DNA from: Prochlorococcus sp. AG-469-F22
GTDB taxonomy: Bacteria > Cyanobacteriota > Cyanobacteriia > PCC-6307 > Cyanobiaceae
DNA length: 44,706 nt
Direction of reading: 5' to 3'
Assembly (NCBI GenBank): GCA_003211655.1
Contig: QCSC01000002.1
Span: 1 to 44,706 of the forward strand
This document shows, piece after piece, positions 1 to 19,044 of the stretch. The notes beneath the pieces are model-generated. The model was not told the origin of the DNA and searched no databases. It saw only the letters and a program-made list of their open reading frames with translations. How positions within the stretch are numbered: position 1 is the first letter of the stretch; the number at the start of each line of letters is the position of its first letter. The position numbers and the translations under genes were made by a program.

Positions 1-390
1 GAAACTAATAAAATTGAGAAAGAAAAAATTAATCTTAACTCATCCGATAAGACGCAAGTTAAAACTCAAAGAGGTAATACTTCTGATCAGAAAAAAAATG
101 ATATACCAGAAAAAGGTTCAGTAAAAGGGAAAAGTAAAATTGAAATTACATGTTTAAAATGTGTTAGTCCAAAATATCCAACAAGGGCATTAAGAAGAGG
201 TGCCGAAGGTAAACCTTTAGTAAAAGTTTGGATTAATAAGTTTGGAAAAGTAACAAAAAGCGAACTAATAAATTCAAGTGGGAATGAATCCATAGACAAA
301 GCAGCTTTATTAGCTGCGGATAAATCAACGTTTTATCCTTTAAAAACTGAAACTACATTAAGAATTGAATATGAGTTAAAAATTAGATAA
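1..390 (+). CDS. tonB: TonB-like energy transducer, C-terminal part (5' end outside window)
   Basis: Open in frame 1 from the window edge to TAA at 388-390, giving 129 residues without a start. After a charged Lys/Glu/Ser linker come the typical features of a TonB C-terminal domain: a Y/P-rich 'SPKYPTRALRRGAEG' entry, a 'KVWINKFGKV' strand, and 'NESIDKAALLAADKSTFYP'. TonB spans the periplasm and passes proton-motive energy from ExbB/ExbD to outer-membrane receptors; the N-terminal membrane anchor and any exbBD genes would lie left of the window. It converges on the receptor and ABC genes that follow, which fits a shared role in uptake. The ORF track missed it because it has no start codon inside the window. 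Confidence 0.85.
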   Translation, partial: ETNKIEKEKINLNSSDKTQVKTQRGNTSDQKKNDIPEKGSVKGKSKIEITCLKCVSPKYPTRALRRGAEGKPLVKVWINKFGKVTKSELINSSGNESIDKAALLAADKSTFYPLKTETTLRIEYELKIR

Positions 391-395
391 TAAAA

Positions 396-1244
396 TTAAA
401 GTGATTCTAATTTCTCGCATGTTTTATTTATTGAATTTAAGCTACCAACATTAATTAATCCATAATAATCAAAATAATCAATATTATTATTTTGTACTGC
501 TTTTAACTTATTCCAGAAAGGTAAAGAGTTATATTGATTGTATTGCTCATTTCCAAATTTTATCAATATCAAATTATCTGGTTCCTCTTTTATAAGCCAT
601 TCAGGCGAAAGATTTAAATAACCTTTCATTCTTCCTGAGCCTTCTAACTCAGCTGTTAAATTTCTTAGATTAAAATTATCTAAAAGAGACCCTGCCCAAC
701 TTTTATTATTTGGGGATAATAATGGTTTTGTACTAACAAGAACAACAACTTTTTTATTCTTAGGTGAAGGATCTATAAAACAAGCATTTAGCTTATTAAA
801 AACAATTTTACTATCTGTATTTGTTATTTCTGAAATTTTATTAATTAAGCTAGTTAAATCAGACAATGAATTAACTTTTGTTTTAAGAACACCAATCCCC
901 ATTTCATCCAATTTTGATAATGTTTTATCATGAAACCCATCAGATCCAATCACTAATTTAGGATTAAGTGAAATAATTTTCTCAAGATTTGGAGGTGTTC
1001 TGCCTTCACTTACAGTAGGAATATTTTTAAAATTATCATTTTTTCTTAAGATAGAACTTCCAGGAATTCCAATTAATTCTTCTGGTTTTAGAGTATAAAT
1101 TATGTCCGAGGTTAAAGAATTTAAGCTAACAATTCCTATATTATTATTTGATTTTTTTTCTTTAATACTAGTTTGATTTTTATTAGAACATCCAAATGAA
1201 ACTAATAGGAAAATAAAGATAAGGAAAATTTTTCTTAATTTCAT
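396..1244 (-). CDS. ABC transporter substrate-binding lipoprotein (BtuF/FepB-like)
   Basis: 282 aa. The N-terminus is a lipoprotein signal with lipobox LVSFGC (Cys19), so it should be a membrane-tethered periplasmic binding protein. The body has the pattern of the periplasmic-binding-protein type 2 family used for iron-siderophore, haem or cobalamin: 'NNNIGIVSLNSLTSDIIYTL' at the start of lobe 1 and 'EKIISLNPKLVIGSDG' before the linker helix. It lies 24 bp downstream of the TonB-dependent receptor on the same strand, as the last gene of the uptake set. The substrate cannot be read from sequence; iron-siderophore is favoured over cobalamin because Prochlorococcus makes its own corrinoid, but that is inference. 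Confidence 0.85.
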   Translation of the reverse strand: MKLRKIFLIFIFLLVSFGCSNKNQTSIKEKKSNNNIGIVSLNSLTSDIIYTLKPEELIGIPGSSILRKNDNFKNIPTVSEGRTPPNLEKIISLNPKLVIGSDGFHDKTLSKLDEMGIGVLKTKVNSLSDLTSLINKISEITNTDSKIVFNKLNACFIDPSPKNKKVVVLVSTKPLLSPNNKSWAGSLLDNFNLRNLTAELEGSGRMKGYLNLSPEWLIKEEPDNLILIKFGNEQYNQYNSLPFWNKLKAVQNNNIDYFDYYGLINVGSLNSINKTCEKLESL

Positions 1245-1268
1245 TTGGCAGTAATTTTAAATAATTTA

Positions 1269-3611
1269 TTAGAAAACGAATTTAAATCCAACTTTAACAT
1301 TAGTACCTGGCTCAGAGAATTTATCTAAATCAGCAGCAGTAGGAGATTCTGTTTTAACAGTTTGATAATTATAATATTTAGTATCAAAAATATTATATAG
1401 TCCAACATCTAGACTTAAACGATCATTTACATTGTAGTTAGTAATTGCGTCAAAAATTGTACTTGCATCAGGTACAAAATATGTATTACTACTTGATGTT
1501 TTAGCAACACCAGTATAAGTTGCAATTAATTCTGAGCTCCATTTCTCAGAGTCTGAATCATAACGCAAACCAAATATTGCTTTAAAAGGATCAATGCTTG
1601 TGAGAGGAACATAATCACTTGTTGAAGTATCATTTCCTTCCGTCCAAGCAATAGAATTAATAAGACTAAAGCCACTTGGTTCTGCGTTGAAATTATAGTT
1701 TGAAGTAAGCTCTATTCCATATATTTCCGCTGAGTCTTTATTTTGAAACTGAAGTACCGAGTAGCCTGGGTCTGCTAATGGATGATCGGATGGTAATGTT
1801 TCATAACCATCAATTCTATTAGTAAAATTACTGAAAAAACCGTTAAGCCCAAAATTTAATTTATCATAATTACCATTTACACCAATTTCATAGTTATCAC
1901 TACTTTCTGACTTTAGATCAGGATTACTTACGACGTAATACCTATAAGCCAAATTTTGGAAAGTAGAGTTAATTTCGCTATATTGAGGAGCTCTAAATCC
2001 TTTGTTATATTTTCCATAAAAAGTTAGATTATCATTTGTTTTATAGAGAATTGCGAGACTAGGGTTAATAACTTCTTCCTTAAGATCCTTTGCTACTGAG
2101 GCTTTTTTCGACTGCAAATATTTTGAATCAGAAGTTGAATCTAAATTATAAGAATCAAATCTAATTCCAGGAATTATTTCCCATTTGTTATTGTCAAAAG
2201 AAATTTCATCTTGTAGGTAAATCCCCAATAATGTGGTGTCTGAATCCGGTGAATCTTTAACATTGGTAGTTGACGCTGCAATCATACCTTTACTAGATAA
2301 TCCTCCAGATTGATATTTTATTCTTTCTCTTGCATTACTTGTTTTGGAATAATCAATTCCATAAGTTAATCTGTGATTTGTTTCTTTATCAAATAAATCA
2401 TTTCTTAACTGTAAATTAGCTCCATAGCTATCATCCTCAAGATCATAATCATTTATAAATTCACGAGTTCCAAAGAAAGCAACCCCGAATTCGCTCTGTC
2501 CAGGAACTCCATAAAGGGGATTCGGAAATCCAGGATCATATCCAGCCTTTCTAGTAAGAATTGAATCGTCTTCAGAATACGCACTTTGATAATAGATTCC
2601 AAGTTTTGAGTAGTCGAAGAAATTTTCACTATCGGCATTATCATATTCATAATTTGCAGAGATTAAAGTCCTTTCAACATTTCTATCTTCAGTGCTTGCT
2701 GAATAACTTCTGCTTAAATTATCAGCTTTTAAAGTTGTATCTGAATCTTTATCTGTTTTTTCGATAATTAAGTTTAATCTTGAGTAATCATCAATATTCT
2801 TTACTAAGTTAGTAAAGAAATTCAAACCTTTACTTTCAAAATCATTAATATATTTTGCTTCAGATTTTACTTTGGTCTCATTTGAGTTTGACCTGGTTAC
2901 AACAAAAACACCTTCCAATCCAGAATCATCATCCCTTCCAGCCATTCTTAAAGAATTTGAAAAACCAGAATTAACTGAATTATAGTTATTTATAGTTTGA
3001 TAAAAAGATGTCTCTCCATCCTTTAGTAAATCTTCTGGATATAGAGATTGAAAAGTAACTACTCCTCCTAAAGCATCACTACCATAAAGTGAAGAAGCTG
3101 GACCTTTAAAAATTTCTGTTCCATTAAGAGCATTAAAATCTACCATCTCAGATCTAAAAATTGTGTAGCTAGATCCAAATTTATAAACTGCTGGAAGCCT
3201 TATATTATCTCTTTGCATTAATATTCTGTTTCCGCTGAAACCTCTAATAGAAATATCGCCTTGTCCATAATTGTTAAATGCCCCATCATTTTCAGACTTC
3301 AAGTCAACCGCTGCATCGTATCTAAAAAGATCTTTTAATTCTGTAACACCTCTCTCAATAATTTCTTCTTGGCCAATAACATTAACAGAAGCTGGGACAT
3401 TTTTTATTTCCCTAGGTGTTCTAGTTCCAGTAACTGAAATTTTTAAAGTCCCCGAATCGTCTGTTGTTGGATTTTCAGCTATTAAAGGTTCTGAATTAGG
3501 TGGAGTTAAAATTTTAGTTTTATTTTCAAATCCTTTATTGACCTGAGAATATATCGGTAATGAAAAAGATGCTGCAAATGCCGCAGCAAAAACCTTTTTT
3601 GTAAATTTCAC
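1269..3611 (-). CDS. TonB-dependent outer-membrane receptor
   Basis: 780 aa, GTG start at 3611. It has a signal peptide (MKFTKKVFAAAFAASFSLPIYSQ region), then a possible TonB box near 'GTLKISVTGTR', and a plug domain at roughly residues 55-190 ('PASVNVIGQEEIIERGV', 'DISIRGFSGNR', 'IEIFKGPASSLYGSDALGG'-like segment). The C-terminal barrel has repeated alternating strands, the 'NPDLKSESSDNYEIGV' signature typical of siderophore/haem receptors, and ends in Phe. It would import a ligand using TonB energy. It lies between the ABC ATPase (198 bp upstream) and the binding lipoprotein. This type of receptor is rare in Prochlorococcus and is an accessory trait. Confidence 0.9.
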   Translation of the reverse strand: MKFTKKVFAAAFAASFSLPIYSQVNKGFENKTKILTPPNSEPLIAENPTTDDSGTLKISVTGTRTPREIKNVPASVNVIGQEEIIERGVTELKDLFRYDAAVDLKSENDGAFNNYGQGDISIRGFSGNRILMQRDNIRLPAVYKFGSSYTIFRSEMVDFNALNGTEIFKGPASSLYGSDALGGVVTFQSLYPEDLLKDGETSFYQTINNYNSVNSGFSNSLRMAGRDDDSGLEGVFVVTRSNSNETKVKSEAKYINDFESKGLNFFTNLVKNIDDYSRLNLIIEKTDKDSDTTLKADNLSRSYSASTEDRNVERTLISANYEYDNADSENFFDYSKLGIYYQSAYSEDDSILTRKAGYDPGFPNPLYGVPGQSEFGVAFFGTREFINDYDLEDDSYGANLQLRNDLFDKETNHRLTYGIDYSKTSNARERIKYQSGGLSSKGMIAASTTNVKDSPDSDTTLLGIYLQDEISFDNNKWEIIPGIRFDSYNLDSTSDSKYLQSKKASVAKDLKEEVINPSLAILYKTNDNLTFYGKYNKGFRAPQYSEINSTFQNLAYRYYVVSNPDLKSESSDNYEIGVNGNYDKLNFGLNGFFSNFTNRIDGYETLPSDHPLADPGYSVLQFQNKDSAEIYGIELTSNYNFNAEPSGFSLINSIAWTEGNDTSTSDYVPLTSIDPFKAIFGLRYDSDSEKWSSELIATYTGVAKTSSSNTYFVPDASTIFDAITNYNVNDRLSLDVGLYNIFDTKYYNYQTVKTESPTAADLDKFSEPGTNVKVGFKFVF

Positions 3612-3809
3612 TTAAAAGCCTCACACTTTTATTAATTACTATTAATTCTTATGTTGAAAAAATTATTTTGAATTTTTTTTAAGTAACTTTTTTTACTAAA
3701 AAAATTTTTTGACTTGAAATCGAAAAAAAAGTTATAAATTAAAATAACTCAAAATACTTTTTTTTGTATTATTTAATACTTTTACTTTTAATGTTTTGAT
3801 CGAAAGACA
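3612..3809. other. AT-rich spacer upstream of the receptor gene
   Basis: About 200 bases of A/T runs between the ABC ATPase stop and the receptor start. It holds a direct repeat of ATTAATT separated by three bases around 3630-3648, close to where a promoter and a Fur operator for the receptor would be expected. No ORF or hairpin terminator stands out. Confidence 0.4.
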
Positions 3810-4592
3810 TTAATTATTCAAGGATTTTATTGCACAAATTTGTTTTCCTACTGAGGTATTAATATATTCTGATTCTACTGAAAAAGCATCTTTTATTATC
3901 TTTTTAGATAATGCATTAATAGGTTTATCAATAGCTAATAATTTGCCTTCTTTTAAAACAGCTAATCTGTCGCAATATCTTGCAGCCAAATTAATATCAT
4001 GGATAACAGATAAGATAGTTAAGTTATTTTTTTTATTTAAAATTTTTATCAGATCTAACATCTGGAGTTGGAAATTAATATCTAAGAAAGTTGTTGGTTC
4101 ATCTAAAAGTATTATTTTTGTTTTTTGAGCAATTGTAAGTGCTAGATATGCACGTTGACATTGTCCTCCTGATAAAGAAGTTAATTCATAGTCAGAATAT
4201 TTCTTCAAGTCGCATAACTCTAAAGCCTCTTTAATTATTGAAAAATCTTCTTTACTCCAATCAAATTCCCAAAAATATTTATGAGGGGATCTTCCTAGAG
4301 ATACTAATTCTTTTACAGTTATAGGCAAATTAGAATTAATTTTTTGCGGAAGATATGAAATAATTTTGGCTAAATTTTTTGTATTTATAGATTTCATACT
4401 TGATTTATTTATTAAAATTTCTCCATTTTGTGTAGGAATAATTTTTGCAATTCCTTTTAATAAAGTTGATTTCCCAGATCCATTAGAGCCTATTATTCCA
4501 ACCCACTCCCCAGATTTAATTTTTAAATCTAGGTTTTGAATAATTGTATTACCTTCATAACCCGTAGAGAAATTTTTTAAAGATAAATCCAT
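3810..4592 (-). CDS. Iron-siderophore/cobalamin-type ABC transporter ATPase (FecE/BtuD-like)
   Basis: 260 aa, usual length for the family. Walker A GSNGSGKST at residues 35-43, a Q-loop segment 'ISYLPQKI', signature LSGGQ near residue 140, Walker B 'IILLDEPT', and a switch His in 'SVIHDINLAARYCDR', which is characteristic of the FecE/FhuC/BtuD branch. It powers the inner-membrane step of import. Its ATG shares the base at 4592 with the stop of the permease gene just upstream, so the two are translationally coupled. The exact ligand cannot be told from the ATPase. Confidence 0.92.
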   Translation of the reverse strand: MDLSLKNFSTGYEGNTIIQNLDLKIKSGEWVGIIGSNGSGKSTLLKGIAKIIPTQNGEILINKSSMKSINTKNLAKIISYLPQKINSNLPITVKELVSLGRSPHKYFWEFDWSKEDFSIIKEALELCDLKKYSDYELTSLSGGQCQRAYLALTIAQKTKIILLDEPTTFLDINFQLQMLDLIKILNKKNNLTILSVIHDINLAARYCDRLAVLKEGKLLAIDKPINALSKKIIKDAFSVESEYINTSVGKQICAIKSLNN

Positions 4593-5593
4593 CAGTTCAT
4601 ACCTATTTTTTTTGATGATCTTTTATATAAAATTATTATAAAAATTGGTGCTCCTAATAAAGAGGTAACTATTCCAACTGGAATTTCAATAGAACCTGAT
4701 CTCGCAATTAAATCTGCTGCACTTAATGTTAATCCCCCTGTAAGGGCTGAAAAAGGTAAAACATATTTGTAATCATTTCCTATTAGTAATCTCGAGAAGT
4801 GAGGAACTACAAGTCCAATAAAACCAATTAAACCACCAATAGAAACTGCGCTTGCTGCTAAAAGTGTTGCCACAAGTCCAATTAGACATCTTGATCTCAA
4901 TAAAGAGTTTCCAAGGCTTGTTGATAACTCTTCCCCTAAGGCTAATAAATTTAACTGCTTTGATAGGAATAGTCCTACTAATAAAGCTAATAAAATTGGA
5001 ATCCAAGTGATTTTAATTTCACTCCATCCCCTTGCATTCAAACTGCCTATTAACCAAGTTAAAGCAGCTTGAATTCTTCCATCTTCTACTTGCAAGATTA
5101 GAGTGGCTTGAATTGCCCCAAATAAACTACTTAATGCAACACCTCCTAAGATTAATCTTTCAACAGATATTTTATTTTCACTCTTTGCAAGAATGAAAAC
5201 TATTATCGTTGTGAATACAGCACCAAACCAAGCCGCTATTGGCATAAAAATTTGAGCTAATCCAAAACTTATAAATGAGACAATAACTAAACCAGACCCT
5301 GCTGATATTCCTAACAAATAAGGACTTGCTAAACCATTCCTCAGCATACCTTGGAGAAGTGCTCCTGACATACCTAAGGAAGAACCAACTAATAATGAAG
5401 CTAATAATCTAGGTAATCTTAGATCCCAAATAATAGTCTTATTTATTTCTTCACCCCTTTGAAAAATTGCTAACCAGATATCTTCATTCGAAATATAAAC
5501 TGAACCTTTAGCTAATGAAAATATAGAAATAATTATTAAAAGGACAATAACTGTTGATAAAGAAAATAAAAATCTCGTTTTAAATAATTTAAT
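4592..5593 (-). CDS. FecCD/BtuC-type ABC permease, probable ATT start
   Basis: The ORF track begins at an internal Met (5371), but the same frame stays open upstream to a stop near 5630 and clearly encodes the missing family N-terminus: a first membrane helix and 'RLPRLLASLLVGSSLGMSG', the classic FecCD loop. There is no ATG, GTG or TTG in this extension. The best start is ATT at 5593-5591, preceded by AGAGGT with 6 bases of spacing, giving 333 aa, the normal length for this family. About 9-10 membrane helices and the C-terminal 'GAPIFIIILYKRS' are present. It forms the membrane channel with the overlapping ATPase. The family call is firm; the ATT start is inferred. Confidence 0.82.
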   Translation of the reverse strand: MKLFKTRFLFSLSTVIVLLIIISIFSLAKGSVYISNEDIWLAIFQRGEEINKTIIWDLRLPRLLASLLVGSSLGMSGALLQGMLRNGLASPYLLGISAGSGLVIVSFISFGLAQIFMPIAAWFGAVFTTIIVFILAKSENKISVERLILGGVALSSLFGAIQATLILQVEDGRIQAALTWLIGSLNARGWSEIKITWIPILLALLVGLFLSKQLNLLALGEELSTSLGNSLLRSRCLIGLVATLLAASAVSIGGLIGFIGLVVPHFSRLLIGNDYKYVLPFSALTGGLTLSAADLIARSGSIEIPVGIVTSLLGAPIFIIILYKRSSKKIGMN

Positions 5594-5610
5594 TTTTTTA
5601 CCTCTACTAC

Positions 5611-5631
5611 TTATTAATGATTATTCTTTAA
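5611..5631 (-). promoter_or_regulatory. Possible Fur-type operator upstream of the permease
   Basis: TTATTAATGATTATTCTTTAA contains the odd palindrome TAAT-G-ATTA centred on 5619 and resembles half of the usual Fur consensus. Its place just ahead of an iron-type ABC operon, in a genome that encodes Fur (41665-42126), makes it reasonable, but in AT-rich DNA such matches arise easily. Confidence 0.25.
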
Positions 5632-6386
<755 letters not shown>

Positions 6387-6470
6387 TCTTTTAAATATTT
6401 TTTTGATTAATAATTTTTCTCATTTAACTCGTAAATTATTTGTGATTGACTAAAAATATTTTTTATTGCT

Positions 6471-7061
6471 CTAAAAATTATCCTTAGTATTTGATGCTAA
6501 GTTCTTTTTTTTTTTTTTTGAAATTTTTTCAATAAATCCTTGGAATCTTTTGAATAGTTTTTCATCGCTCTTTTTCCTTAATATAAATAACGTCCCTTTA
6601 TCACCTCTGCATATTCTTAGATCATTACTTAAGTAGGTAATATCTAACCATCCTTTTTGTTCTTTTTTTATTTCTGCTAAGGCTTTTACTTTATTGAATC
6701 CTATTTGGGGACCTATTAATCCTGTATGAGTAAATTGAACCTCAACTCTAATATCGTTGATTGGTTTTAACTTGGCTATGATACCAGCCCCAACAATTGC
6801 ATTAATACCTCTTGGTTTAAGCAAGTTCATGGCACTTGACTTTAAAGGATCCAAGATTTGTAGATTATCTACTAATGGCGAATAATTTAAGAATGGAGCA
6901 TTAGAACTGCTCCATCTTAACTCCCATATTCCCTGCAATTTCTCAATATCTTTACTAAGAATGAAATTTGAATTGCTTTCAAGTTTTGGAGTTAATAATA
7001 AAATATCCTTTGAATTTGGTTTATCAAAAAGTAATTTTATTAGCTTTTGTTCTGTCTCCAT
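6471..7061 (-). CDS. PAP/fibrillin family protein
   Basis: 196 aa. The central part fits the plastid lipid-associated protein (PAP/fibrillin) family: 'LQGIWELRWSSSNAPFLNYS' is the family's entry motif, followed by 'VDNLQILDP' and the strand pair 'INDIRVEVQFTHTGLIGPQ' and 'GWLDITYLSNDLRICRGDKG'. Such proteins are lipocalin-like and sit at thylakoids, where they are thought to bind lipids or isoprenoids; the ligand is unknown. The C-terminus is a Lys-rich tail. It converges on psaC with an 84-bp gap. Confidence 0.85.
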   Translation of the reverse strand: METEQKLIKLLFDKPNSKDILLLTPKLESNSNFILSKDIEKLQGIWELRWSSSNAPFLNYSPLVDNLQILDPLKSSAMNLLKPRGINAIVGAGIIAKLKPINDIRVEVQFTHTGLIGPQIGFNKVKALAEIKKEQKGWLDITYLSNDLRICRGDKGTLFILRKKSDEKLFKRFQGFIEKISKKKKKNLASNTKDNF

Positions 7062-7495
7062 TATTTCATCTTAAGGATTAAGTACTTTCATTTCTGCTAA
7101 TGAGACTTGATTGTCAATAAGAAAATTCCTTTTGATGAGTTTGAAGGAATCTACATTGCAATCAATTCTATAACTTCAATAAGCCACTAAGTTTTTGGTC
7201 GGTTGTACATCATTATGTAGCTAAGTTATCCGAAGAGACGGAAATGACTGAAGAGAGACTTAAAAGTTGAACTAAAACTTATCCAAAGTACTATATACAT
7301 ATATATAGATATATATATATGGTTGGACAAATAGGAAAAGGCAAATAATTCCATCATCTTCTTAAATACATTGCATTATACATTTATGTAACAGTTACGC
7401 GTACTTTTTTACTCTTTATGCCGGTTTATGCAATAAATCTCTTTACATTGGTTAATATTACCGTTATATTTCTTAGCATTTATTAATTTTAAATT
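7062..7495. other. Intergenic region upstream of the hli gene
   Basis: 434 bases without a supported gene. Around 7290-7321 is a run of alternating TA/TATATAGATATATATATA. The 100 bases before 7496 probably hold the hli promoter and leader. No structured RNA recognised. Confidence 0.45.
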
Positions 7496-7603
7496 ATGAC
7501 TCCTAAAGCAGAAAGATTTAATGGATTGGCTGCAATGCTTGGCTTCGTAGCAGCTGTTGGTGCTTACGTTTCAACTGGGCAAATTATCCCTGGGATCTTT
7601 TAA
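7496..7603 (+). CDS. hli: High-light-inducible protein (Hlip), very short
   Basis: 35 aa, too short for the ORF track. 'AERFNGLAAMLGFVAAVGAYVSTGQIIPGIF' matches the single chlorophyll-binding helix of Hlips (ExxNGRxAMxGF pattern, here ERFNGLAAMLGF) followed by the typical 'TGQIIPG' end. Hlips bind chlorophyll and carotenoid in the thylakoid membrane and protect photosystem assembly under light stress. The usual Arg of the NGR motif is Leu here, so the helix pair may bind pigment differently. Many such short hli genes in Prochlorococcus are found in variable regions, which suits the neighbourhood. Confidence 0.9.
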   Translation: MTPKAERFNGLAAMLGFVAAVGAYVSTGQIIPGIF

Positions 7604-7605
7604 AA

Positions 7606-7668
7606 ATGAAACCAATTTCTTTTGAACTTTATGAAAAGCTTTTAAAGGCTTATGAATCATCTAAATAA
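7606..7668 (+). CDS. Possible 20-residue peptide after hli
   Basis: MKPISFELYEKLLKAYESSK, starting two bases after the hli stop codon and so possibly co-translated with it. It is amphipathic and without cysteines. The tight spacing is the only support; I do not recognise a family. Confidence 0.25.
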   Translation: MKPISFELYEKLLKAYESSK

Positions 7669-7714
7669 TTTTTTAATTTTACTTAAATCTTTTATTTCAA
7701 CGATTTCTTCTTGA

Positions 7715-7740
7715 ATCCGATACTAACATCCGATACTAAC
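7715..7740. repeat. 13-bp tandem repeat, two copies
   Basis: ATCCGATACTAAC occurs twice head to tail without a mismatch. It lies in non-coding sequence between the hli gene and a decayed ORF. Confidence 0.8.
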
Positions 7741-7808
7741 CATAAGATTCACAAAACTAATTTTAATTTCCAAAAAATATGAATTTAGGAATTCTCTTTC
7801 TCAAATGA

Positions 7809-7957
7809 AATACAACTGGAGTAATAACTTTATCTGAATTGGATTGGATTACAAATCATCAATCAGAATTTTCAAGGTTAGATATGGCACTAGTTTAAAA
7901 ATTGGTCGCTTAATGGATGAAGGAATAATAGAACTTGATTGTAGATTGCAAGCATAA
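7809..7957 (+). pseudogene. Frameshifted small protein remnant
   Basis: One frame reads 'LSELDWITNHQSEFSRLDMALV' then stops; shifting by one base at about 7894 continues as 'LKIGRLMDEGIIELDCRLQA' and ends in TAA at 7955-7957. Together these read as one coherent small soluble protein of about 45 residues, interrupted by a single-base change in the A-run near 'gtttaaaaatt'. No good start codon lies before the first half. A terminator hairpin follows at 7981. The family was not identified with certainty. Confidence 0.5.
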
Positions 7958-7980
7958 TTTACTTATATAAAATCATCACG

Positions 7981-8014
7981 AGCTTGCTTTTAATAATATG
8001 GGCAAGCTTTTTTT
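7981..8014 (+). terminator. Rho-independent terminator
   Basis: AGCTTGC and GCAAGCT form a perfect 7-bp stem with a 14-base loop, followed directly by a run of T. It points rightward and would end the hli transcript and the decayed ORF behind it. Confidence 0.75.
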
Positions 8015-8250
8015 ATTTTCTATTTGCGATGAGTGTGTCTTATCCGCTAATTTTATTTCTAATAAATTATGGTTGGCTTCAGTTGTATCCCTGCAACTGC
8101 CTCATGACAACCATGTATTAGTCCTAGGACTGGCAATTTAATAATAGTCTCAAAATTTGGTCCTCTTTCCGAACCTAAAAGTTCATCAAACCGCCCTATG
8201 AATTTCAAGAAATTAGGAGGACAATATAGGAATAGATCTAGGAGGTCTAA
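8015..8250. other. Non-coding stretch
   Basis: About 235 bases with no supported gene; short open stretches in all frames are broken by stops. AGGAGG occurs at 8216-8221 and again at 8239-8245, the second in the right position for the decayed ORF at 8251. Confidence 0.4.
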
Positions 8251-8391
8251 ATAAAACTATTCAATCAATTCACAATCCTAAAAAAGAATTTAAGAGACAT
8301 TGATTATGCTAAGAAAAATAAGGTTAACTACTGAACTAGAGAATGCGAAGAACATCCAACTAATCCATATTGTTTAATCTATTGTGACTAA
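8251..8391 (+). pseudogene. Decayed small Cys-containing protein (lost start and one nonsense codon)
   Basis: Frame at 8251 reads 'KLFNQFTILKKNLRDIDYAK...NY' then TGA (8332-8334), then 'TRECEEHPTNPYCLIYCD' and TAA. The first codon is ATA, 5 bases after a strong AGGAGG, where ATG would be expected. The internal TGA would be TGG (Trp) before one G-to-A change. Two G-to-A changes therefore explain both defects. The C-terminal motif with three Cys (CEEHP...YCLIYCD) looks like a conserved small marine picocyanobacterial protein, function unknown. Confidence 0.5.
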
Positions 8392-8659
8392 CTAGTTATG
8401 CTCCTCTCTCGTGGAAGCAATAAGTGTTGAAAGTAATGTAAAAAGTTCTTATGAAATTAGCTGGTTTTGAAGAAATATAAAAAGTTAAAGAAGGTTTACT
8501 TTAAATTATATTTTTATAGTTTTTATATTCCTATATTCGCTCATTTCTAAATCACTTTTTATCTTTTATCTATGTTTTGGTAAAAAACGATATTACATTG
8601 GTATAAAAAAGAAAGAAATTAAAACTATATAGGTGTAGATTTCTTTTTATTTGATAGTT
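8392..8659. other. Non-coding stretch
   Basis: Only very short open frames here, such as a 10-codon ORF from ATG at 8398. The last 60 bases probably contain the promoter of the next small gene. Nothing else seen. Confidence 0.4.
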
Positions 8660-8806
8660 ATGCATTTATTTTTTGCGTTTACAGAAAATAATATTGATAC
8701 TAAATTTTTTTTTAGTTCATTAATTGGTGTAGGAGTAACAGCTTTTTTTTTCTATTTAATATTTTGGTTAACTAATCAAAAGGCTATGTATAACCGCTCA
8801 AACTAG
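8660..8806 (+). CDS. Small single-helix membrane protein
   Basis: 48 aa, ATG start, not in the ORF track. A single hydrophobic helix 'SSLIGVGVTAFFFYLIFWLT' is preceded by a polar N-terminus and followed by a short basic tail 'NQKAMYNRSN'. It lies 55 bp upstream of the DUF1330 gene on the same strand. Family unknown. Confidence 0.5.
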   Translation: MHLFFAFTENNIDTKFFFSSLIGVGVTAFFFYLIFWLTNQKAMYNRSN

Positions 8807-8861
8807 GTTTACAAAGTAACAACAACATTAATATATTTAATGGGTAGATTTAGGACTTTAA

Positions 8862-9203
8862 ATGGATAAAAGAGGAGCTAAAGGTTACTGGCTTTCTACG
8901 GCAAAAATAGTAAATCAGCAATTATTTGATGAATATGTAAGCAAAGTTATTCCATGGCTAAAAGAAGTTCATGGAGAAGTCTTTGCTAAAGATACAGAGC
9001 CACAAGGAAAACAAAAAACGGAAGATGCCAACCTAGCCGTTATTTGCGAATTTCCATCAATGAGGGCAGCCGTTGAGGCTTATGAATCTGAAGAATATAA
9101 AGAGCTTTCAAAACTAAGGAAAGAAGCTACTGAAAATTCAACGTTTACAATTATGGAAGGTTTAGATGAAGCTGCAAAGCTTAGAAGAGCAATGGGTAAG
9201 TAA
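8862..9203 (+). CDS. DUF1330 family protein
   Basis: 113 aa. The protein follows the DUF1330 pattern, a dimeric alpha-beta barrel of the ABM type: 'KGYWLSTAKIVNQQLFDEYV', a middle 'HGEVFAKD' strand, 'LAVICEFPSMRAAVEAYESEEYKEL' and a final 'FTIMEG' strand. The family has no established reaction; some members are thought to bind or oxidise small molecules. A C-terminal extension 'LDEAAKLRRAMGK' is added. The cytoplasmic location is inferred from the lack of a signal peptide. Confidence 0.85.
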   Translation: MDKRGAKGYWLSTAKIVNQQLFDEYVSKVIPWLKEVHGEVFAKDTEPQGKQKTEDANLAVICEFPSMRAAVEAYESEEYKELSKLRKEATENSTFTIMEGLDEAAKLRRAMGK

Positions 9204-9258
9204 GTTTTTAAAGATTGACAGTCGATCTAAAATTGGAGGGATAAAAACCTCTTTTTGT

Positions 9259-9546
9259 ATGGCTAAAAAAGAATTAAAAAAAGTTTTTAACTTAAACTCT
9301 TATGAATGGTGGAGAAATCATCGAAGGGTCGTAACCTTTGTTTTGTTCTTATCCCTTTTTGCTTTTTATTTAGGGAACCCTTTTCATAAGGAAGCAAAAG
9401 TAAAGGATACCTGCGCAAAATTAAATTCAAGCTTCCAAATTACAGGCGATGAAGCGATGAAGAAGCTTAATCTCAAGGAAATAAAAAATTATAATAATCG
9501 CGAGTTAGCTAACTATTACTGCGAGAGATATTTAGGCATAAAATAA
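9259..9546 (+). CDS. Small membrane-anchored protein with two conserved-looking cysteines
   Basis: 95 aa from the ATG at 9259; the ORF track begins earlier at 9166, but that extension only overlaps the DUF1330 gene in another frame and has no hydrophobic or conserved features. One helix 'VVTFVLFLSLFAFYLGNPF' anchors a C-terminal domain that runs from 'DTCAKLN' to 'NYYCERYLGIK', about 40 residues. A similar arrangement (helix, CA motif, YC near the end) is seen in the gene at 20518-20757. A weak GAGG/CCTC hairpin with T-run sits just before the start and may end the previous transcript. Function unknown. Confidence 0.65.
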   Translation: MAKKELKKVFNLNSYEWWRNHRRVVTFVLFLSLFAFYLGNPFHKEAKVKDTCAKLNSSFQITGDEAMKKLNLKEIKNYNNRELANYYCERYLGIK

Positions 9547-9551
9547 GAAAA

Positions 9552-9617
9552 ATGAAATGCTTTCTACTCCTATTTCTAGCTTCTCTAGCTTTATGTACTT
9601 CTAACCTATGCAGTTAA
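9552..9617 (+). CDS. Signal-peptide-like 21-residue ORF, possibly a remnant
   Basis: MKCFLLLFLASLALCTSNLCS, then TAA directly next to the stop of the opposite gene. It looks like a complete export signal with nothing after it, as if a secreted protein had lost its mature part. Could equally be chance in T-rich DNA. Confidence 0.25.
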   Translation: MKCFLLLFLASLALCTSNLCS

Positions 9618-9854
9618 TCAGGCAAGTGATGTTTCAATAAGATTTCTCAAGACTTCTTTAGCGTTTAAAAGTGTGTCATTAAATAAAGACTGACCAATTG
9701 ATATTGCTAAAGGAACACCTAATAAAAGACCACTAAAAACAATGATTATCAATAAACATGCAATCCTAATAAGCCATATGGTGAAAGGGTCAATAATTTT
9801 TGTATTGTTTTTCAGTTCTTCAACTGGTTGTTTAGCTTGATTTGTTGCAAACAT
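9618..9854 (-). CDS. Small single-helix membrane protein
   Basis: 78 aa with ATG start. A polar N-terminus (about 25 residues) is followed by one strong helix 'IWLIRIACLLIIIVFSGLLLG' and an amphipathic C-terminus 'LLNAKEVLRNLIETSLA'. It converges on the preceding gene. I do not recognise the family, but composition and codon use look like a real gene. Confidence 0.6.
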   Translation of the reverse strand: MFATNQAKQPVEELKNNTKIIDPFTIWLIRIACLLIIIVFSGLLLGVPLAISIGQSLFNDTLLNAKEVLRNLIETSLA

Positions 9855-9976
9855 TTTTAATTATTAAATTGTAGGACATTAAAATAAATCTAATTTTTAA
9901 TCAAGCCAAATTTATACCATTTAATAGCCAATTATTTTATGGTGAAATAAATGAAAATCTTACTACTTACACCGCT

Positions 9977-10162
9977 ATGTTAAATACTGATAGGGCTAAT
10001 GCATTAGCTAAGTGGATACAAAACTGGAAAAAAACTTATAATGAAAATCCAAAGTTAAATTAATGTATTACTTGGTTTGAGTGGAAATATGAAGATAAAG
10101 AGCTCTCACCAAGCGACAAGAGTTCAATCGCAACCATCTTGAGATATAACTCGGAAGAATAA
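9977..10162 (+). pseudogene. Small ORF interrupted by an in-frame TAA
   Basis: From ATG at 9977 the frame reads 'MLNTDRANALAKWIQNWKKT' and on to TAA at 10061-10063, then carries straight on in the same frame with 'CITWFEWKYEDKELSPSDKS' and 'SIATILRYNSEE' to TAA at 10160-10162. Both halves look like coherent soluble protein. A single CAA-to-TAA change would explain the break. The upstream frame is also open ('FIPFNSQLFYGEINENLTTY') without a start codon, so the original protein may have been longer. Family unknown. Confidence 0.45.
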
Positions 10163-10164
10163 TT

Positions 10165-10257
10165 ATGTATGGAATAGCAATTACTTATGCGGTTATTAGT
10201 TTGTTATTACTAGGTGGCTTTGCATATTTAACATTTAAAATGACCTCTAAAAAATGA
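10165..10257 (+). CDS. Tiny membrane protein, 30 aa
   Basis: MYGIAITYAVISLLLLGGFA then YLTFKMTSKK: one hydrophobic helix with a basic C-terminus, which predicts N-out, C-in topology. Its stop overlaps the start of the next tiny gene (ATGA at 10254-10257), which strongly suggests both are translated. The size is like small photosystem or cytochrome subunits, but it matches none that I know. Confidence 0.5.
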   Translation: MYGIAITYAVISLLLLGGFAYLTFKMTSKK

Positions 10258-10349
10258 TTGGAAGTTTACCTAAATTAATTGCTCTTCTTATGGTTTTGCT
10301 ACTTGTAGGTAGTACTTTTGTTGGTGGGATTATTTACTTTTTAAGATGA
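10254..10349 (+). CDS. Tiny membrane protein, 31 aa, coupled to the previous one
   Basis: MIGSLPKLIALLMVLLLVGS then TFVGGIIYFLR: again a single helix with Arg at the end. It starts inside the stop codon of the 10165 gene (ATGA overlap). Two coupled single-helix peptides suggest a heterodimer or accessory subunits of a membrane complex; this is inference. Confidence 0.5.
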   Translation: MIGSLPKLIALLMVLLLVGSTFVGGIIYFLR

Positions 10350-10367
10350 GTTATGACATTGTTTTAA

Positions 10368-10538
10368 GCTAATAATGATTGTATTCTTGGGACACTTAAT
10401 CTAATTCAAAATCAAATCTTTTCGATGATGAAATCCTCAAATGATGAAGAAAAAGCTATCGATTAAATAGTAAAAATAATTCAAGATTTTCAATACAATG
10501 ATGAACTTAGTGAGAAAAAAAGAGAGATTTTAGATTAA
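10368..10538 (+). pseudogene. Second small ORF interrupted by an in-frame TAA
   Basis: The frame reads 'NDCILGTLNLIQNQIFSMMK', 'SSNDEEKAID', then TAA (10464-10466), then 'IVKIIQDFQYNDELSEKKRE' 'ILD' and TAA. A Gln codon CAA changed to TAA would restore one helical, charged protein of about 55 residues. No normal start before the first half. It lies about 300 bases from another ORF broken in the same way. Confidence 0.4.
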
Positions 10539-10642
10539 GATAAAATATATGATTGACAGTTGATATAAATTAAAGATAAAAGTTCCTTTTTATCTAAAAC
10601 TTTATAAGCTTTTTCAGAAAATGTAAAAGAGCATAAAATATA

Positions 10643-11071
10643 TTATTGAATATCTTTAAATGCATTTAATAACCAACTAAAAAAGTTAAGAGGATTTAAA
10701 AGATCTCTTATTTTAGATTTTAATTTGTATTCTGTAGGAATAATTAGTGCTAATAAAGTCCAAGAAACTACTTTAATGAAATTAAAAATTTCAAACAGTA
10801 AATCAATTTCCTCTTCTATTTCTGCATTTTCTAAAATTTCTCCGTTTTCATTGAGTATGTCTATCTCTTCTTCAAAAAACCACTCCTCTTTTCCATTAGA
10901 GAGTTTTAAAATAACGCCAATACCTTTACCATCGGTGATTTTGAAATCAATTATTTGACATATTGATGAAATCTCAATTGCTTTTATACTTTCTTTCCCC
11001 AATCTTTTTTTGGCTAAATCAATTTTAATTTGAACGTTTGACCCTATTTGCGCTCTTTCATAAATTTTCAT
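10643..11071 (-). CDS. DUF2862-like protein with C-terminal hydrophobic segment
   Basis: 142 aa, ATG start. The N-terminal half resembles cyanobacterial DUF2862: 'IGSNVQIKIDLAKKR' followed by 'DFKITDGKGIGVILKLSNGK' and 'EEWFFEEEIDIL', a small beta-rich fold. An acidic stretch follows, then a hydrophobic helix 'VVSWTLLALIIP' and an amphipathic tail that may anchor it to a membrane. Function unknown. The tail makes it longer than a bare DUF2862 protein. Confidence 0.7.
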   Translation of the reverse strand: MKIYERAQIGSNVQIKIDLAKKRLGKESIKAIEISSICQIIDFKITDGKGIGVILKLSNGKEEWFFEEEIDILNENGEILENAEIEEEIDLLFEIFNFIKVVSWTLLALIIPTEYKLKSKIRDLLNPLNFFSWLLNAFKDIQ

Positions 11072-11219
11072 TTTTTAAGTAATTATACTTATTTGTAATA
11101 TGAAATAGAGAATCAAATATCAATAAAAAAAGTAAGGGCTTTGAAATAATTTGAATCATTTGTACTTTTCAGATCAAAAAAATATTTATAAATTTAGTTA
11201 TGAGAATACCTTGCTAAAG

Positions 11220-11405
11220 ATGGAAAGTTGTCAAATCATTTTTCTAAATCTTGCAATAGTTGGATTTATTTCTCAACTTTTCAAATATATATTATTTTTC
11301 AATCGAAACTTGGTCTTGAAAAGAGATAATGCTAAAGATTTATTAGAAAAAATCTATAGCAAACCTTCTTCTTATGAGAGTTATATTAGAAAACTAAACT
11401 TTTAA
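11220..11405 (+). CDS. Small membrane protein, 61 aa
   Basis: I use ATG at 11220 rather than the TTG at 11151 in the ORF track, because the extra 23 residues show no membrane or conserved feature. The helix 'CQIIFLNLAIVGFISQLFKY' is followed by a basic, soluble tail 'NAKDLLEKIYSKPSSYESYI'. Another small membrane ORF follows 5 bases later. Family unknown. Confidence 0.45.
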   Translation: MESCQIIFLNLAIVGFISQLFKYILFFNRNLVLKRDNAKDLLEKIYSKPSSYESYIRKLNF

Positions 11406-11410
11406 ATCTA

Positions 11411-11533
11411 TTGAGAGATCCTGAACAATTAATTATATTTTTAGATGGATTTGCCTTTATTATTTTAATTGGTCTTTTTATTCTTTTATTTAAAAGCAAC
11501 AAATGGTTTAAAAGAAATAAAAATACAAGTTAA
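11411..11533 (+). CDS. Small membrane protein, 40 aa, TTG start
   Basis: Starting at TTG 11411: 'RDPEQLIIFLDGFAFIILIG' continuing 'LFILLFKSNKWFKRNKNTS'. One hydrophobic helix then a strongly basic tail. It follows the 11220 gene by 5 bases, so the two may be one unit. Support is only compositional. Confidence 0.4.
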   Translation: MRDPEQLIIFLDGFAFIILIGLFILLFKSNKWFKRNKNTS

Positions 11534-11707
11534 CCCTATTTTCAGTCTCGAATGTAATCTGAGAATTAATAGTAAAGATAAAGAATGAATACCGCTGCAA
11601 AAATATTACTTTAGTGATCAAGGTCACAATTTTGATTGATTGATTTATACCAAGATCAAAATTGTTGGAATGATTTGTTAGGGTTTTGATCAAACAATTA
11701 AAAAGCG

Positions 11708-11827
11708 ATGGAAGCCATAAATAAAATCCTACCTTTCGGTTTAAAAGTTCAGAAGTTAGTTCCATTTTTTATAGTCACTAAATTAGTTAGCTTCGTTGGG
11801 TTTGCAATCTTTATGATGAACCGCTAA
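11708..11827 (+). CDS. Small membrane protein, 39 aa
   Basis: MEAINKILPFGLKVQKLVPF then FIVTKLVSFVGFAIFMMNR. One helix preceded by a short amphipathic region. It has a clean ATG start and its stop TAA overlaps a following ATG (TAATG). The minus-strand ORF in the track (11508-11765) over the same place looks like its shadow. Confidence 0.5.
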   Translation: MEAINKILPFGLKVQKLVPFFIVTKLVSFVGFAIFMMNR

Positions 11828-11969
11828 TGGATCAGAAACTTTTAGAGTAATTTTATTAACTATATTTGTTCCCTTCGCTGGATATAAAGTTTATAAATTT
11901 TTCAAGAAACTTTATAAATTATCAGAACCATCTTTTAAAAAAAAATCAGAAAAAATATTTAAAATTTGA
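11827..11969 (+). pseudogene. Small membrane protein with a probable frameshift near the start
   Basis: ATG at 11827 overlaps the previous stop, reads MDQKLLE and stops. One frame over, the sequence continues 'RVILLTIFVPFAGYKVYKFF' and 'KKLYKLSEPSFKKKSEKIFK' to TGA at 11967-11969, a membrane helix and basic tail. A one-base insertion in the T-run at about 11839 would join them into a normal small gene coupled to the 11708 gene. Alternatively the second frame uses an unusual start. Confidence 0.35.
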
Positions 11970-12166
11970 TTTAAATTTTTATCGAAAAACTATTAAAAAT
12001 AATTGTTTTTAAATCATCAAATTAAATAGTTATTTATATAGAATGATTTCCTAGAGTTATACAGAATATACATTAACTAATATTTTTTGAACACATAAGT
12101 ATTTTTACTCTTTAAAGTATCAAAACCTATTGGCATGCTGGTATTTCATTATAAAAATTAGCTTTT

Positions 12167-12346
12167 ATGCAAGAAAGAATTAATAAAGAAGTAAATAAAA
12201 ATTTATTTAATGAGATAGATATTAATCTTCTTTCTGGGATGCAATGTTCAGGGAATAATAAATTTCATCAAAATTATTTGGAAAAACTAAAATTCCAAAC
12301 TGAATCTGCATTTATAAATAAAAAATATAATAATTTTAAAAGTTAA
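12167..12346 (+). CDS. Small soluble protein, 59 aa
   Basis: ATG start, not in the ORF track: 'MQERINKEVNKNLFNEIDIN' ... 'FQTESAFINKKYNNFKS'. Charged and helical, with one Cys (GMQCSG). It lies 20 bp upstream of ycf34 on the same strand and may be co-transcribed. Family unknown. Confidence 0.45.
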   Translation: MQERINKEVNKNLFNEIDINLLSGMQCSGNNKFHQNYLEKLKFQTESAFINKKYNNFKS

Positions 12347-12366
12347 ATTTATTTAGTTATATAAAA

Positions 12367-12618
12367 ATGTGTATTTGTATTAACTGTAAATTGGTCGATA
12401 GGTGTAAGACATATCATGATGTAGAAAAAAATCATGAGGTTGAACATCTAACTTCTTATCCTGATGTCACTGCTAAGAATCCAATAATTCATGTAAATCT
12501 AGTTAAAGAAAAAACTGGAAATTTTTCAATAGAATGGGATGTTAGATCTTGTTCTAGTTTTTATAAAGAGATTGGTAGATGGTCTAAAATCAATCCTGGG
12601 GTTGAGGTCCCCGCATAG
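12367..12618 (+). CDS. ycf34: Ycf34 iron-sulfur protein
   Basis: 83 aa, standard length for Ycf34. The N-terminal MCICINCKLVDRCKTYH supplies Cys2, Cys4, Cys7 and Cys13, known to hold an iron-sulfur cluster in this family, and the C-terminal half has 'FSIEWDVRSCSSF', the second family signature. Ycf34 is found in cyanobacteria and algal plastids; in Synechocystis it affects photosynthetic electron transport and redox-linked transcription. The neighbours are small unknown genes. Confidence 0.95.
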   Translation: MCICINCKLVDRCKTYHDVEKNHEVEHLTSYPDVTAKNPIIHVNLVKEKTGNFSIEWDVRSCSSFYKEIGRWSKINPGVEVPA

Positions 12619-12789
12619 CGGAATTCATAACTTACACAAAAAGTCTAACCATTTAATAAAAGATTTTTTTAAGACTTTCTACTATTAAATTCAAAATAAA
12701 TAGTTCAATTATGAAATCAACCTACAAAAAGAACACAAAAGCCTCGCAAGTATAAATACCTAGATAATATAAGAATAGAATTTTATTTT

Positions 12790-13008
12790 ATGCTTATGAA
12801 ATATTTTCTTGATACAGCATTTAAACCTTACCAAGATATTTTTGAAATCCTAGAAAATCTTATGAGGATGGAAAAAATAATGGACTCAAAAAATGAGCAT
12901 TGGGATTTTTATAATGATAATATTCCAAATTGGTTTTATAAAATGATCATTATGATGGGAATATCTGTATTCTTCGGTTTTTTATTGATATTGGCTGGTT
13001 CTATTTAA
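12790..13008 (+). CDS. Small membrane protein, 72 aa
   Basis: ATG at 12790; an internal ATG two codons later is an alternative. A soluble, acidic N-terminal half ('DIFEILENLMRMEKIMDSKN') leads to a single C-terminal helix 'MIIMMGISVFFGFLLILAGS', a tail-anchored arrangement. It converges on the oxidase operon. Family unknown. Confidence 0.55.
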   Translation: MLMKYFLDTAFKPYQDIFEILENLMRMEKIMDSKNEHWDFYNDNIPNWFYKMIIMMGISVFFGFLLILAGSI

Positions 13009-13202
13009 TATTTATAGCTTTAATAATTTACTTGAAAATTGAATATTTTGAATTATTGAATTTAAATTCATAAAAAATTTTAAATGTATAATTAACTAAC
13101 ATTTTTTATTTCAATTAAAGTCTTAAGGCCTACATATCAAGGGTTTATAAAGATTGCCAGAGGTAAGATAATCTCCTAATTTGAGGGACAAGGCAATAAC
13201 TG

Positions 13203-13622
13203 TTAAACCATGACCAATACTTGGGCAACTTGGAAAAATACTTGCAAGCTGAAAGTTAGTTCAGACCACTCAACATATTGTCCATATACAAAGTAACTTC
13301 CCATCATCATAGTTATGAACCAAATAATTCTGAAACCCCATAAATTTTTCTTATGAAGATATTTTTCTGCAAAGTAAATTACAAAACTTGAAGAGACTAA
13401 AATTACAGTATTTATAAGCGGCATTTTTATATCAATCCCATTTATACCTGTGGGGTACCAAACAGGTGCACTAATTTTAAGGACACTGTAACCTACAAAA
13501 AAAGCAAAAAATATAATACTTTCCGAGCATAAAAATATAATAAATCCAGTCATATTATGGCCATCATGTTTTATATGACCTGGTTTATGATTTAAAGATA
13601 AATTTTGATTTTCTGTAAGCAT
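13203..13622 (-). CDS. ctaE: Haem-copper oxidase subunit III, shortened at the C-terminus
   Basis: 139 aa against about 200 for cyanobacterial CtaE. Helices I-III are recognisable ('FIIFLCSESIIFFAFFVGYS', 'LINTVILVSSSFVIYFAEKY', 'FITMMMGSYFVYGQYVEWSE'). After 'ELTFSL' the frame runs into 'QVFFQVAQVLVMV' and stops; the usual 'FYxLTGFHGLHV' and last two helices are missing, and neither other frame downstream restores them, although one stays open for about 40 codons. Its start follows the subunit I stop by 2 bp in the operon. It is probably a non-functional or reduced subunit; subunit III is not part of the catalytic core. Confidence 0.8.
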   Translation of the reverse strand: MLTENQNLSLNHKPGHIKHDGHNMTGFIIFLCSESIIFFAFFVGYSVLKISAPVWYPTGINGIDIKMPLINTVILVSSSFVIYFAEKYLHKKNLWGFRIIWFITMMMGSYFVYGQYVEWSELTFSLQVFFQVAQVLVMV

Positions 13623-13624
13623 AT

Positions 13625-15316: not shown

Positions 15317-15324
15317 ATCAGATT

Positions 15325-16260
15325 TTAACTATCATGAAGTCGTGCTTCAGAACCAACCTCATTAACTTTTGGATCAGGAGCAGGTTTAACTGTAGCCCAA
15401 CCTCTATTACCATTTCTTAGCCTTTTTTCATACAATCGGCCAGCAGGATTTAATCCATTTTGAGGTTCTTTTTTTACAGTCTCCTTAATCCATTTGTAAA
15501 AAATTTCTTCAGACTCTACGATTACATTTGTTTGGTTTTCTGAGAAATATGCACCACTAAACATTGCATCTCTTAATCTAAATACACCCTCTTTCGTAGG
15601 TGTAAGAGAATATGTAATTACACTTCCAGGAATAATATCTTGCTTTAATCTAAATGCCGGGACATAAAAGCTATGAATAACATCTTCTGTTATTAATCTA
15701 AAATTTGATCTTTTATCAACTGGCAAATGTAATTCAGAACTATGTATTCCATTTGGATAAACAAACTCCCAATTCCATTGTCTTGAAATCACATCAATAG
15801 GTCCATAATCAAAAACTTTTTTCTCCTCAACAAAAGGAACCTCCGCTCCAAAATCATATTTTATTTTTGACCCTAAGTTTTCAAGTTTATAATTAACACT
15901 TGTTGAGTATGTTGATATCCCCAAAACTAAAATAAGTGGAACTATTGTCCATATAATTTCAAGTTTTAAATTGCCTTCTAATGGTTCGCCATTACTTTCA
16001 TCATACTTGGGGGCTCTATTGAATACTAAAATCCAAGCCATTGTCCCTGTACAACCTAGAAAGATAAAAGTACCAATAGTTGTTTCAAAAGCAAATAGAT
16101 TATCTACATAATGAGCAGCTTCTGAGGCTTGTATTGGTAACCAACTATAAGACCAATATCCCATTAATAAACTAACTACGACGTTTAGAACTACTGCAAT
16201 AATAATTATAATAATGCTTGAAAAATTCTTTTTCTTTAACCTTCTTATTTTAGTATTCAT
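15325..16260 (-). CDS. ctaC: Haem-copper oxidase subunit II lacking CuA ligands (ARTO-like)
   Basis: 311 aa. Two N-terminal helices (about 15-37 and 100-120) carry a periplasmic or lumenal cupredoxin domain. The CuA centre normally needs two Cys, one Glu, two His and a Met. His196 in 'DVIHSFYVPAFRLKQDIIPG' is kept, but the loop that should read CxxxC is RDAMFSGAYF: the positions of Cys, Glu, Cys and His are Asp231, Met233, Ser235 and Phe239. The only Cys is in a helix. The protein therefore cannot bind CuA and is not expected to take electrons from cytochrome c directly; CuA-less subunits occur in quinol oxidases and in cyanobacterial ARTO. The conserved aromatic 'QWNWEF' remains. Start overlaps the previous stop by 4 bp. 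Confidence 0.95.
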   Translation of the reverse strand: MNTKIRRLKKKNFSSIIIIIIAVVLNVVVSLLMGYWSYSWLPIQASEAAHYVDNLFAFETTIGTFIFLGCTGTMAWILVFNRAPKYDESNGEPLEGNLKLEIIWTIVPLILVLGISTYSTSVNYKLENLGSKIKYDFGAEVPFVEEKKVFDYGPIDVISRQWNWEFVYPNGIHSSELHLPVDKRSNFRLITEDVIHSFYVPAFRLKQDIIPGSVITYSLTPTKEGVFRLRDAMFSGAYFSENQTNVIVESEEIFYKWIKETVKKEPQNGLNPAGRLYEKRLRNGNRGWATVKPAPDPKVNEVGSEARLHDS

Positions 16261-17485: not shown

Positions 17486-17959
17486 ATTTGAAAAGATATT
17501 TTCTATTAAATAAAGAGCTTCTTTTTCAAATCTATATATAATTTTTTAGATAAGCAACAATTTTAGAGACCTTTTAATGTATTAATAATGTATTAAATTT
17601 TATTCGAAGAATATATCATTATTGTGTAAAAGTTATTTTTACCTTCTAATGTAAATTATTTATCTATCCAATTATTTTTAATTAATAAAAATAAAAAATA
17701 ATTATCTATAAGTTCCAAGAATATTTTTTCAGCTATCAGAATTTATCTTTTAATTAAATTTTAAATCTACATAAAAAGATAAAAAATAATCAGAGAAAAA
17801 TAAAGTCTGAAAATTGGTTAAAGAAAAAATTTTTTAATAAATTATTCTATTTTCTAGGTCATTATACTTTCTTAAGAAATAAATATCACAGTATCTTGAA
17901 AACTTAATTACACATTTTTTCGTAATCATTTATTAGTTTATTTAAAAGAATAAATACCA
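17486..17959. other. AT-rich intergenic region between divergent genes
   Basis: 474 bases with dense A/T runs between the oxidase operon (leftward) and a small rightward gene. It must contain the oxidase promoter, but no distinct operator or ORF can be picked out. Confidence 0.45.
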
Positions 17960-18169: not shown

Positions 18170-18347
18170 TTTGAATTACAGGCTTTAAATTAACCCTGTT
18201 TTAACTGGACAAGAACTCCTATATGTTCATAAAGAAATAGTAGTAAAGTAGATACCTAAAAAAAATTTTTAAAATCTAAATAAAATATATATTTTTAAAA
18301 TCTACTTAATTATGTTTGCTAGACCATAAATAGAGCTAAATTTAATT

Positions 18348-19026: not shown

Positions 19027-19044
19027 AAAATTTATCATTTTATT

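Follow-up and report, generated by a model that had tools for sequence, protein, structure and literature searches.

A putative organic-iron uptake cassette on a genomic island with a second psaC and an ARTO operon in Prochlorococcus sp. AG-469-F22

A siderophore-uptake cluster of Prochlorococcus has been described in 47 picocyanobacterial genomes (Hogle et al. 2022, PMC9122953) and corresponds to Pro-eCAG_015 (fecDCAB-tonB-exbBD), which is enriched where waters are low in iron (Doré et al. 2023, PMC10119275). The latter study also lists the alternative respiratory terminal oxidase operon (ARTO, ctaC2D2E2) as the low-iron eCAG_016 of Prochlorococcus, a low-iron adaptation. Regarding expression, Malmstrom 2013, as far as it is cited in PMC9122953, has the Prochlorococcus receptor and binding protein rise only under iron deficiency, and the PCC 7002 genes SYNPCC7002_G0079-G0082 are induced under iron limitation and already derepressed in a Fur knock-down (PMC4628125). 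Here we examine a cluster of this type in Prochlorococcus sp. AG-469-F22, together with a second copy of psaC (psaC2) and an ARTO operon that share its genomic island. The window analysed is the entire contig QCSC01000002.1 (contig C2, 44,706 bp), part of a 1.1 Mb genome assembled in 80 contigs and 59% complete. Distribution was surveyed in a set of 266 Prochlorococcus species genomes, 87 of them with a completeness of at least 90%.

All five genes of a TonB-dependent set, reported in a preliminary description of this DNA, were located at the left end of the window, each above the Pfam cut-off for its family. The first is the C-terminal 129 aa of tonB (1-390, plus strand; PF03544, TonB_C, 5e-14; TIGR01352, 1e-13), whose N-terminus is lost to the contig end. 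On the minus strand follow a periplasmic ferric-complex-binding lipoprotein (396-1244; Peripla_BP_2, PF01497, 4e-13), a TonB-dependent outer-membrane receptor (1269-3611; PF00593 barrel, 9e-52; PF07715 plug, 9e-21), an ABC ATPase of FecE/FhuC type (3810-4592; PF00005, ABC_tran, 3e-31) and a full-length FecCD permease (4592-5593; PF01032, 3e-91). The top NCBIfam model for the ATPase is FecE, with a score under the cut-off of that model. Hogle et al. define their cluster by a PF00593 receptor with at least five adjacent genes among those for binding protein, permease, ATPase, TonB, ExbB and ExbD, or by an interrupted contig; here the receptor has four partners, and tonB is where the contig breaks off. 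The order permease-ATPase-receptor-binding lipoprotein, then tonB-exbB-exbD, is repeated in other Prochlorococcus loci. The cluster is thus the published 'siderophore consumer' operon of Prochlorococcus and not a discovery. It was rightly described as accessory: the permease is present in only 10/266 genomes (3/87 among those at least 90% complete), and MIT 9201 is a sequenced isolate carrying the cassette.

We consider it very likely that the locus serves to scavenge and import iron and sits on a genomic island, gained as a mobile mosaic cassette with other low-iron genes. The outer-membrane receptor would bind a ferric organic complex, whose entry into the periplasm would be powered by TonB, itself driven by ExbB/ExbD; the lipoprotein would collect the complex there, and the FecCD permease and ATPase would carry it into the cytoplasm. 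In this genome, the low-iron genes acquired along with it would be a second psaC and an ARTO oxidase.

The island context was established by comparison with other genomes. From position 5822 or 6002 to 21078, the window aligns with islands of MIT 9201 and of two further genomes (G032 and G093), for the most part at 90-97% identity and with indels. Within this segment lie psaC2 (6141-6386, plus strand) and the ARTO operon (13203-17485, minus strand; COX3, COX1, COX2 and two DUF2231 genes by Pfam). With ARTO in the same window, one island carries cassette, psaC2 and ARTO together. Between psaC2 and ARTO, the window also encodes a protein (10643-11071) whose domain is Tsr0524-like and cytochrome b6f-associated, as do the islands of MIT 9201, G032 and G093. 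Elements of the tycheposon type have a tRNA at one end, a tyrosine recombinase and a terminal repeat of the tRNA. The putative island anchor here is a tRNA-Ser(TGA) gene (22065-22154, plus strand; ARAGORN, Rfam), and a partial 39-bp copy of tRNA-Ser stands at the start of the G032 contig. Next to it, at 21287-21946 on the minus strand, is a shortened (219 aa) relative of a 391-398 aa island gene read as integrase, a family whose members sit at island ends in G032, G093 and MIT 9201; the 219-aa fragment has no Pfam match and its recombinase identity is assumed. In the three relatives, the island end with tRNA-Ser is the one nearer psaC2; in the window it is the one nearer ARTO. Similarity switches abruptly at 21072-21078, with a 7-bp overlap and an order inverted relative to these genomes, a junction that reflects a real inversion or else a chimera of amplification.

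The same question applies to the cassette/psaC2 junction, where a repeated intergenic motif, AAGGAGCTAATTGCCTCTTATTGTGGATC (5786-5839, plus strand), marks the point at which cassette-type flank homology stops and psaC2-type flank homology starts. Several Prochlorococcus genomes repeat this motif close to the ends of cassettes; an RNA hairpin at 5775-5850 was rejected as its fold is no better than those of shuffled sequences. That the junction is a chimera of single-cell amplification, so that the adjacency is not real, we regard as unlikely. The genome does resemble a fragmented single-cell assembly, the switch lands on a short repeated motif and a second, inverted switch lies at 21072-21078; however, another genome, AG-321-E21 (G021), has cassette and psaC2 on one contig, 2.5 kb apart, and the cross-genome association of these genes is independent of this junction. 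This association was measured with plain hypergeometric P values, in which kinship and incompleteness are ignored. ARTO, found in 16/266 genomes, is present in nine of the ten psaC2 genomes (0.6 expected, P = 7e-12; 1e-10 without the window genome), and the cassette in five of these ten (0.38 expected, P = 5e-6; 7e-5 without it), while ARTO and cassette occur together in four genomes (P = 0.0015; 0.01 without it). In a tree of one gene, the carriers are spread over several clades. psaC2 and ARTO were seen physically linked in G000, G032, G093 and MIT 9201, and psaC2 and cassette in G000 and G021 only.

The cassette itself is a mosaic. Compared with five other Prochlorococcus cassettes, the window permease reaches 77-83% identity along its whole length, the ATPase 44-53%, the binding lipoprotein 44-50% and the receptor only 33-42%. 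For the window, we rejected recent recombination as the source of this high identity: about half of the permease four-fold sites are identical, similar to the ATPase, and strong constraint at the protein level rather than recent exchange thus explains the figure. Such recent sharing does apply to MIT 9201, AG-439-O21 and AG-321-E21. Between AG-321-E21 and MIT 9201 (loci L010 and L015), the permease is 97% and the ATPase 86% identical, whereas the receptors share only 34%; receptors thus seem to have been swapped between otherwise alike cassettes. A receptor-only search of named genomes gave no match, probably since receptors diverge too fast, while alignment of the permease succeeded.

The alignment of 12 loci was also informative for the start of the permease. 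No ATG, GTG or TTG occurs in the 57-64 open codons 5′ to the permease motif W(D/E/K)LRLPR in the window and in AG-686-J21 (64 codons and WDLRLPR in the window), and an in-frame stop sits just upstream of them. The aligned start codon is ATT or ATA in 12/12 loci, and in most of them a GAGG-like sequence precedes it by about 7 nt. Hence the permease of the window probably begins at ATT (5591-5593). Automated annotation would shorten a protein with such an AUU or AUA start. Upstream of the permease, a conserved promoter-like block, AACTTGAA ... AATAATNATTA, covers 5594-5680 on the minus strand. Regulation of the cluster by iron is presumed, and a Fur site in this upstream region is suspected only. 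The Fur gene that the preliminary description had pointed to later in the window does exist as a Fur-family gene (41665-42126), but it is 36 kb off, outside the island, and tells nothing specific about the cluster.

We next consider the ligand, which may well be a scavenged ferric siderophore or a similar chelate, the reading that we favour to some degree. Several observations weigh against this reading of the cassette. Both sequence and fold place the receptor nearer to receptors for haem and transferrin than to those for siderophores; the siderophore receptors FepA and FhuA show the opposite pattern in the model test, with CirA intermediate; and the window assembly has neither exbB/exbD nor the N-terminus of tonB. 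As to the last point, no ExbB or ExbD was found in the assembly of this 59% complete genome, but exbB and exbD lie directly beyond tonB in related Prochlorococcus loci. Their absence is therefore probably an effect of the contig end, with the genes just off the contig.

In the model test, curated cut-offs were used. The receptor passes TIGR01785, the TonB-dependent haem/haemoglobin receptor model (324.9 bits versus 316.85; relatives 284-346), falls just under TIGR01786 for haemoglobin/transferrin/lactoferrin receptors (322.9 versus 323.75) and stays far under TIGR01783 for TonB-dependent siderophore receptors (116 versus 223.5), for which FepA, FhuA and CirA gave 577, 688 and 199 bits, respectively. 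An organic-iron pathway, as first proposed, is supported, while its siderophore nature is unproven. The cluster could instead import haem or another porphyrin from lysed plankton, an ordinary haem oxygenase then freeing the iron, a possibility that we hold to be rather improbable. It would agree with the TIGR01785 scores, which are above the threshold in the window receptor and in three relatives, and with the top match of the receptor, the haem receptor PhuR (sequence 3e-62; fold E 1e-47, TM 0.76/0.82), which is ranked ahead of TbpA, ChuA/ShuA and HasR by fold. The predicted models are moderate (pLDDT 70.2 for the receptor and 73.5 for the binding lipoprotein) and the fold ranks serve as supporting evidence only. 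Mirus 2009, in addition, assigns a receptor of the PCC 7002 plasmid pAQ7 to the HutA subtree.

The residues expected of a haem receptor gave a different picture. Functional haem receptors of the HemR, ShuA and HmbR type carry a plug His and a His between FRAP and NPNL (His128/His461 type), but both are absent from the window receptor. The plug His was absent from 9/9 Prochlorococcus receptors examined, and the FRAP-NPDL loop of these nine lacks His, apart from a stray residue in two receptors. Tyr558 in this loop is, on the other hand, kept in 12/12 relatives compared and aligned with a Tyr of PhuR, which argues for haem. PhuR itself uses a His/Tyr pair. The receptor is thus of a PhuR/HutA-like family by sequence and fold, without the classical haem histidines.

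The binding lipoprotein speaks against haem: HtsA is its top solved match by profile search (4.5e-15) with HutB far lower, and HtsA again comes first in the fold search of its model, followed by HutB and others, although siderophore and haem binders are poorly separated there. Haem oxygenase was found in the three near-complete carriers searched, which is weak support for haem because this gene is probably core in Prochlorococcus. The cluster itself has no haem oxygenase, and from this lack a siderophore was argued in PMC9122953, where the substrate is stated as not pinpointed. Since the receptors look haem-type rather than siderophore-type by family, the 'siderophore consumer' label rests on indirect arguments. 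Import of cobalamin or another non-iron metal complex is highly improbable. BtuC does belong among the FecCD permeases, and BtuC models score almost as high as FhuB; but the B12 receptor model gave 89 bits versus a cut-off of 599.7, an Rfam search of the window found no cobalamin riboswitch, and expression is reported under iron deficiency only, so far as Malmstrom 2013 is cited. Our preference thus stays with a ferric siderophore, or a chelate like it, that the cell scavenges, and ligands other than these and porphyrins are together less probable than haem. Leaving the ligand open was right at the outset, as the receptor family and the missing haem histidines conflict and the searches against characterised proteins point to haem through PhuR and to a siderophore through HtsA.

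The gene that follows the cassette is the lead worth following, the uptake cluster being one more divergent member of a published system. The cluster was said to lie directly next to psaC, and psaC is indeed found at 6141-6386 (TIGR03048, 186 bits, cut-off 130.65), but as a second, island-borne copy with a TTG start and not as the core photosystem gene. When psaC neighbourhoods were compared across strains, the native copies, with an ATG start, were found in the locus tktA-fabF-acpP / psaC / glmS, whereas the window copy lies outside it, has none of these neighbours and has a different upstream region. Its DNA is 82-88% identical to the native copies compared, while the encoded protein is identical to native PsaC. 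A genus-wide search gave several genomes with two copies, and in a single-contig genome (G204) both are present, about 300 kb or more apart. In MIT 9201, the DNA of its two copies is 87% identical. (As to a possible loss of native psaC in favour of psaC2 in the window genome, a search for glmS in incomplete genomes, run without a positive control, found none in 6/6.) The signature of a TTG-start psaC, with the 5′ sequence TTGTCTCACGCAGTAAA, occurs in 10/266 genomes; further psaC2 loci include L057, L059, L061, L063, L064, L066, L109 and L122.

TTG as a diagnostic of psaC2 was rejected, because native psaC, lying next to acpP, also starts with it in two other genera (g56 and g4); psaC2 is therefore defined by locus and clade and not by start codon. 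In a tree of the 246-bp gene, which has low resolution, psaC2 copies cluster apart from the native copies of the genus. The window psaC2 shares 99-100% identity with its counterparts in G032, G093 and MIT 9201, and MIT 9201 falls in another clade of a metY tree; near-identity despite this difference points to a recent transfer. A phage origin was not supported: P-TIM68 is the sole phage record with psaC (95% protein identity, ATG start), and the TTG-start signature was absent from the viral contigs searched. A long phage branch stands beside G081_2 in the psaC tree.

As for function, we propose only tentatively, and with more doubt than belief, that psaC2 moves horizontally, has its own regulation and was gained with ARTO and organic-iron uptake in iron-poor water, where it would supply the FA/FB subunit of photosystem I when the native copy is insufficient, for example during fast rebuilding after iron starvation. 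If true, psaC2, a duplicate of a core photosystem I gene, would tie the assembly of this photosystem directly and testably to the supply of iron in the most abundant phototroph of the ocean. It might also serve as a new marker of low iron in metagenomes. No mention of a second psaC was found in the literature searched, which did not extend to subscription-only articles such as the tycheposon paper and Malmstrom 2013, and novelty is thus not proven. Elsewhere in the window, the cyanobacterial small RNA Yfr13 was observed at 26212-26314 (Rfam, 102 bits).

Compared with known systems, the receptor resembles PhuR of Pseudomonas aeruginosa, its top match by sequence and fold, but has no His where the plug His of PhuR aligns, and its cluster is without a haem oxygenase gene. 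The binding lipoprotein resembles the staphyloferrin A binding protein HtsA, the top solved match of both its profile and its model, while being only about 21% identical to it. The order permease-ATPase-receptor-binding lipoprotein is also found on one Leptolyngbya plasmid and on plasmid pAQ7 of PCC 7002, whose operon (RS15605-RS15625) has identities of 53% for the permease, 42% for the ATPase, 33% for the receptor and 47% for the binding lipoprotein. Unlike the window cassette, this operon has a VOC-family gene inserted between those for receptor and binding protein, and its tonB is located elsewhere on the plasmid; the operon is probably SYNPCC7002_G0079 onward, as the gene order and the receptor list of Mirus 2009 suggest. 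The ARTO operon is identical in kind to eCAG_016 (PMC10119275), in a region as in MIT 9201, but it lies here about 7 kb from psaC2 and shares its contig with a TonB cassette. Finally, the cluster agrees with the published Prochlorococcus cluster (PMC9122953; PMC10119275) in gene families, gene order and sporadic occurrence, and differs from it in that the window cassette is joined to psaC2 and ARTO.

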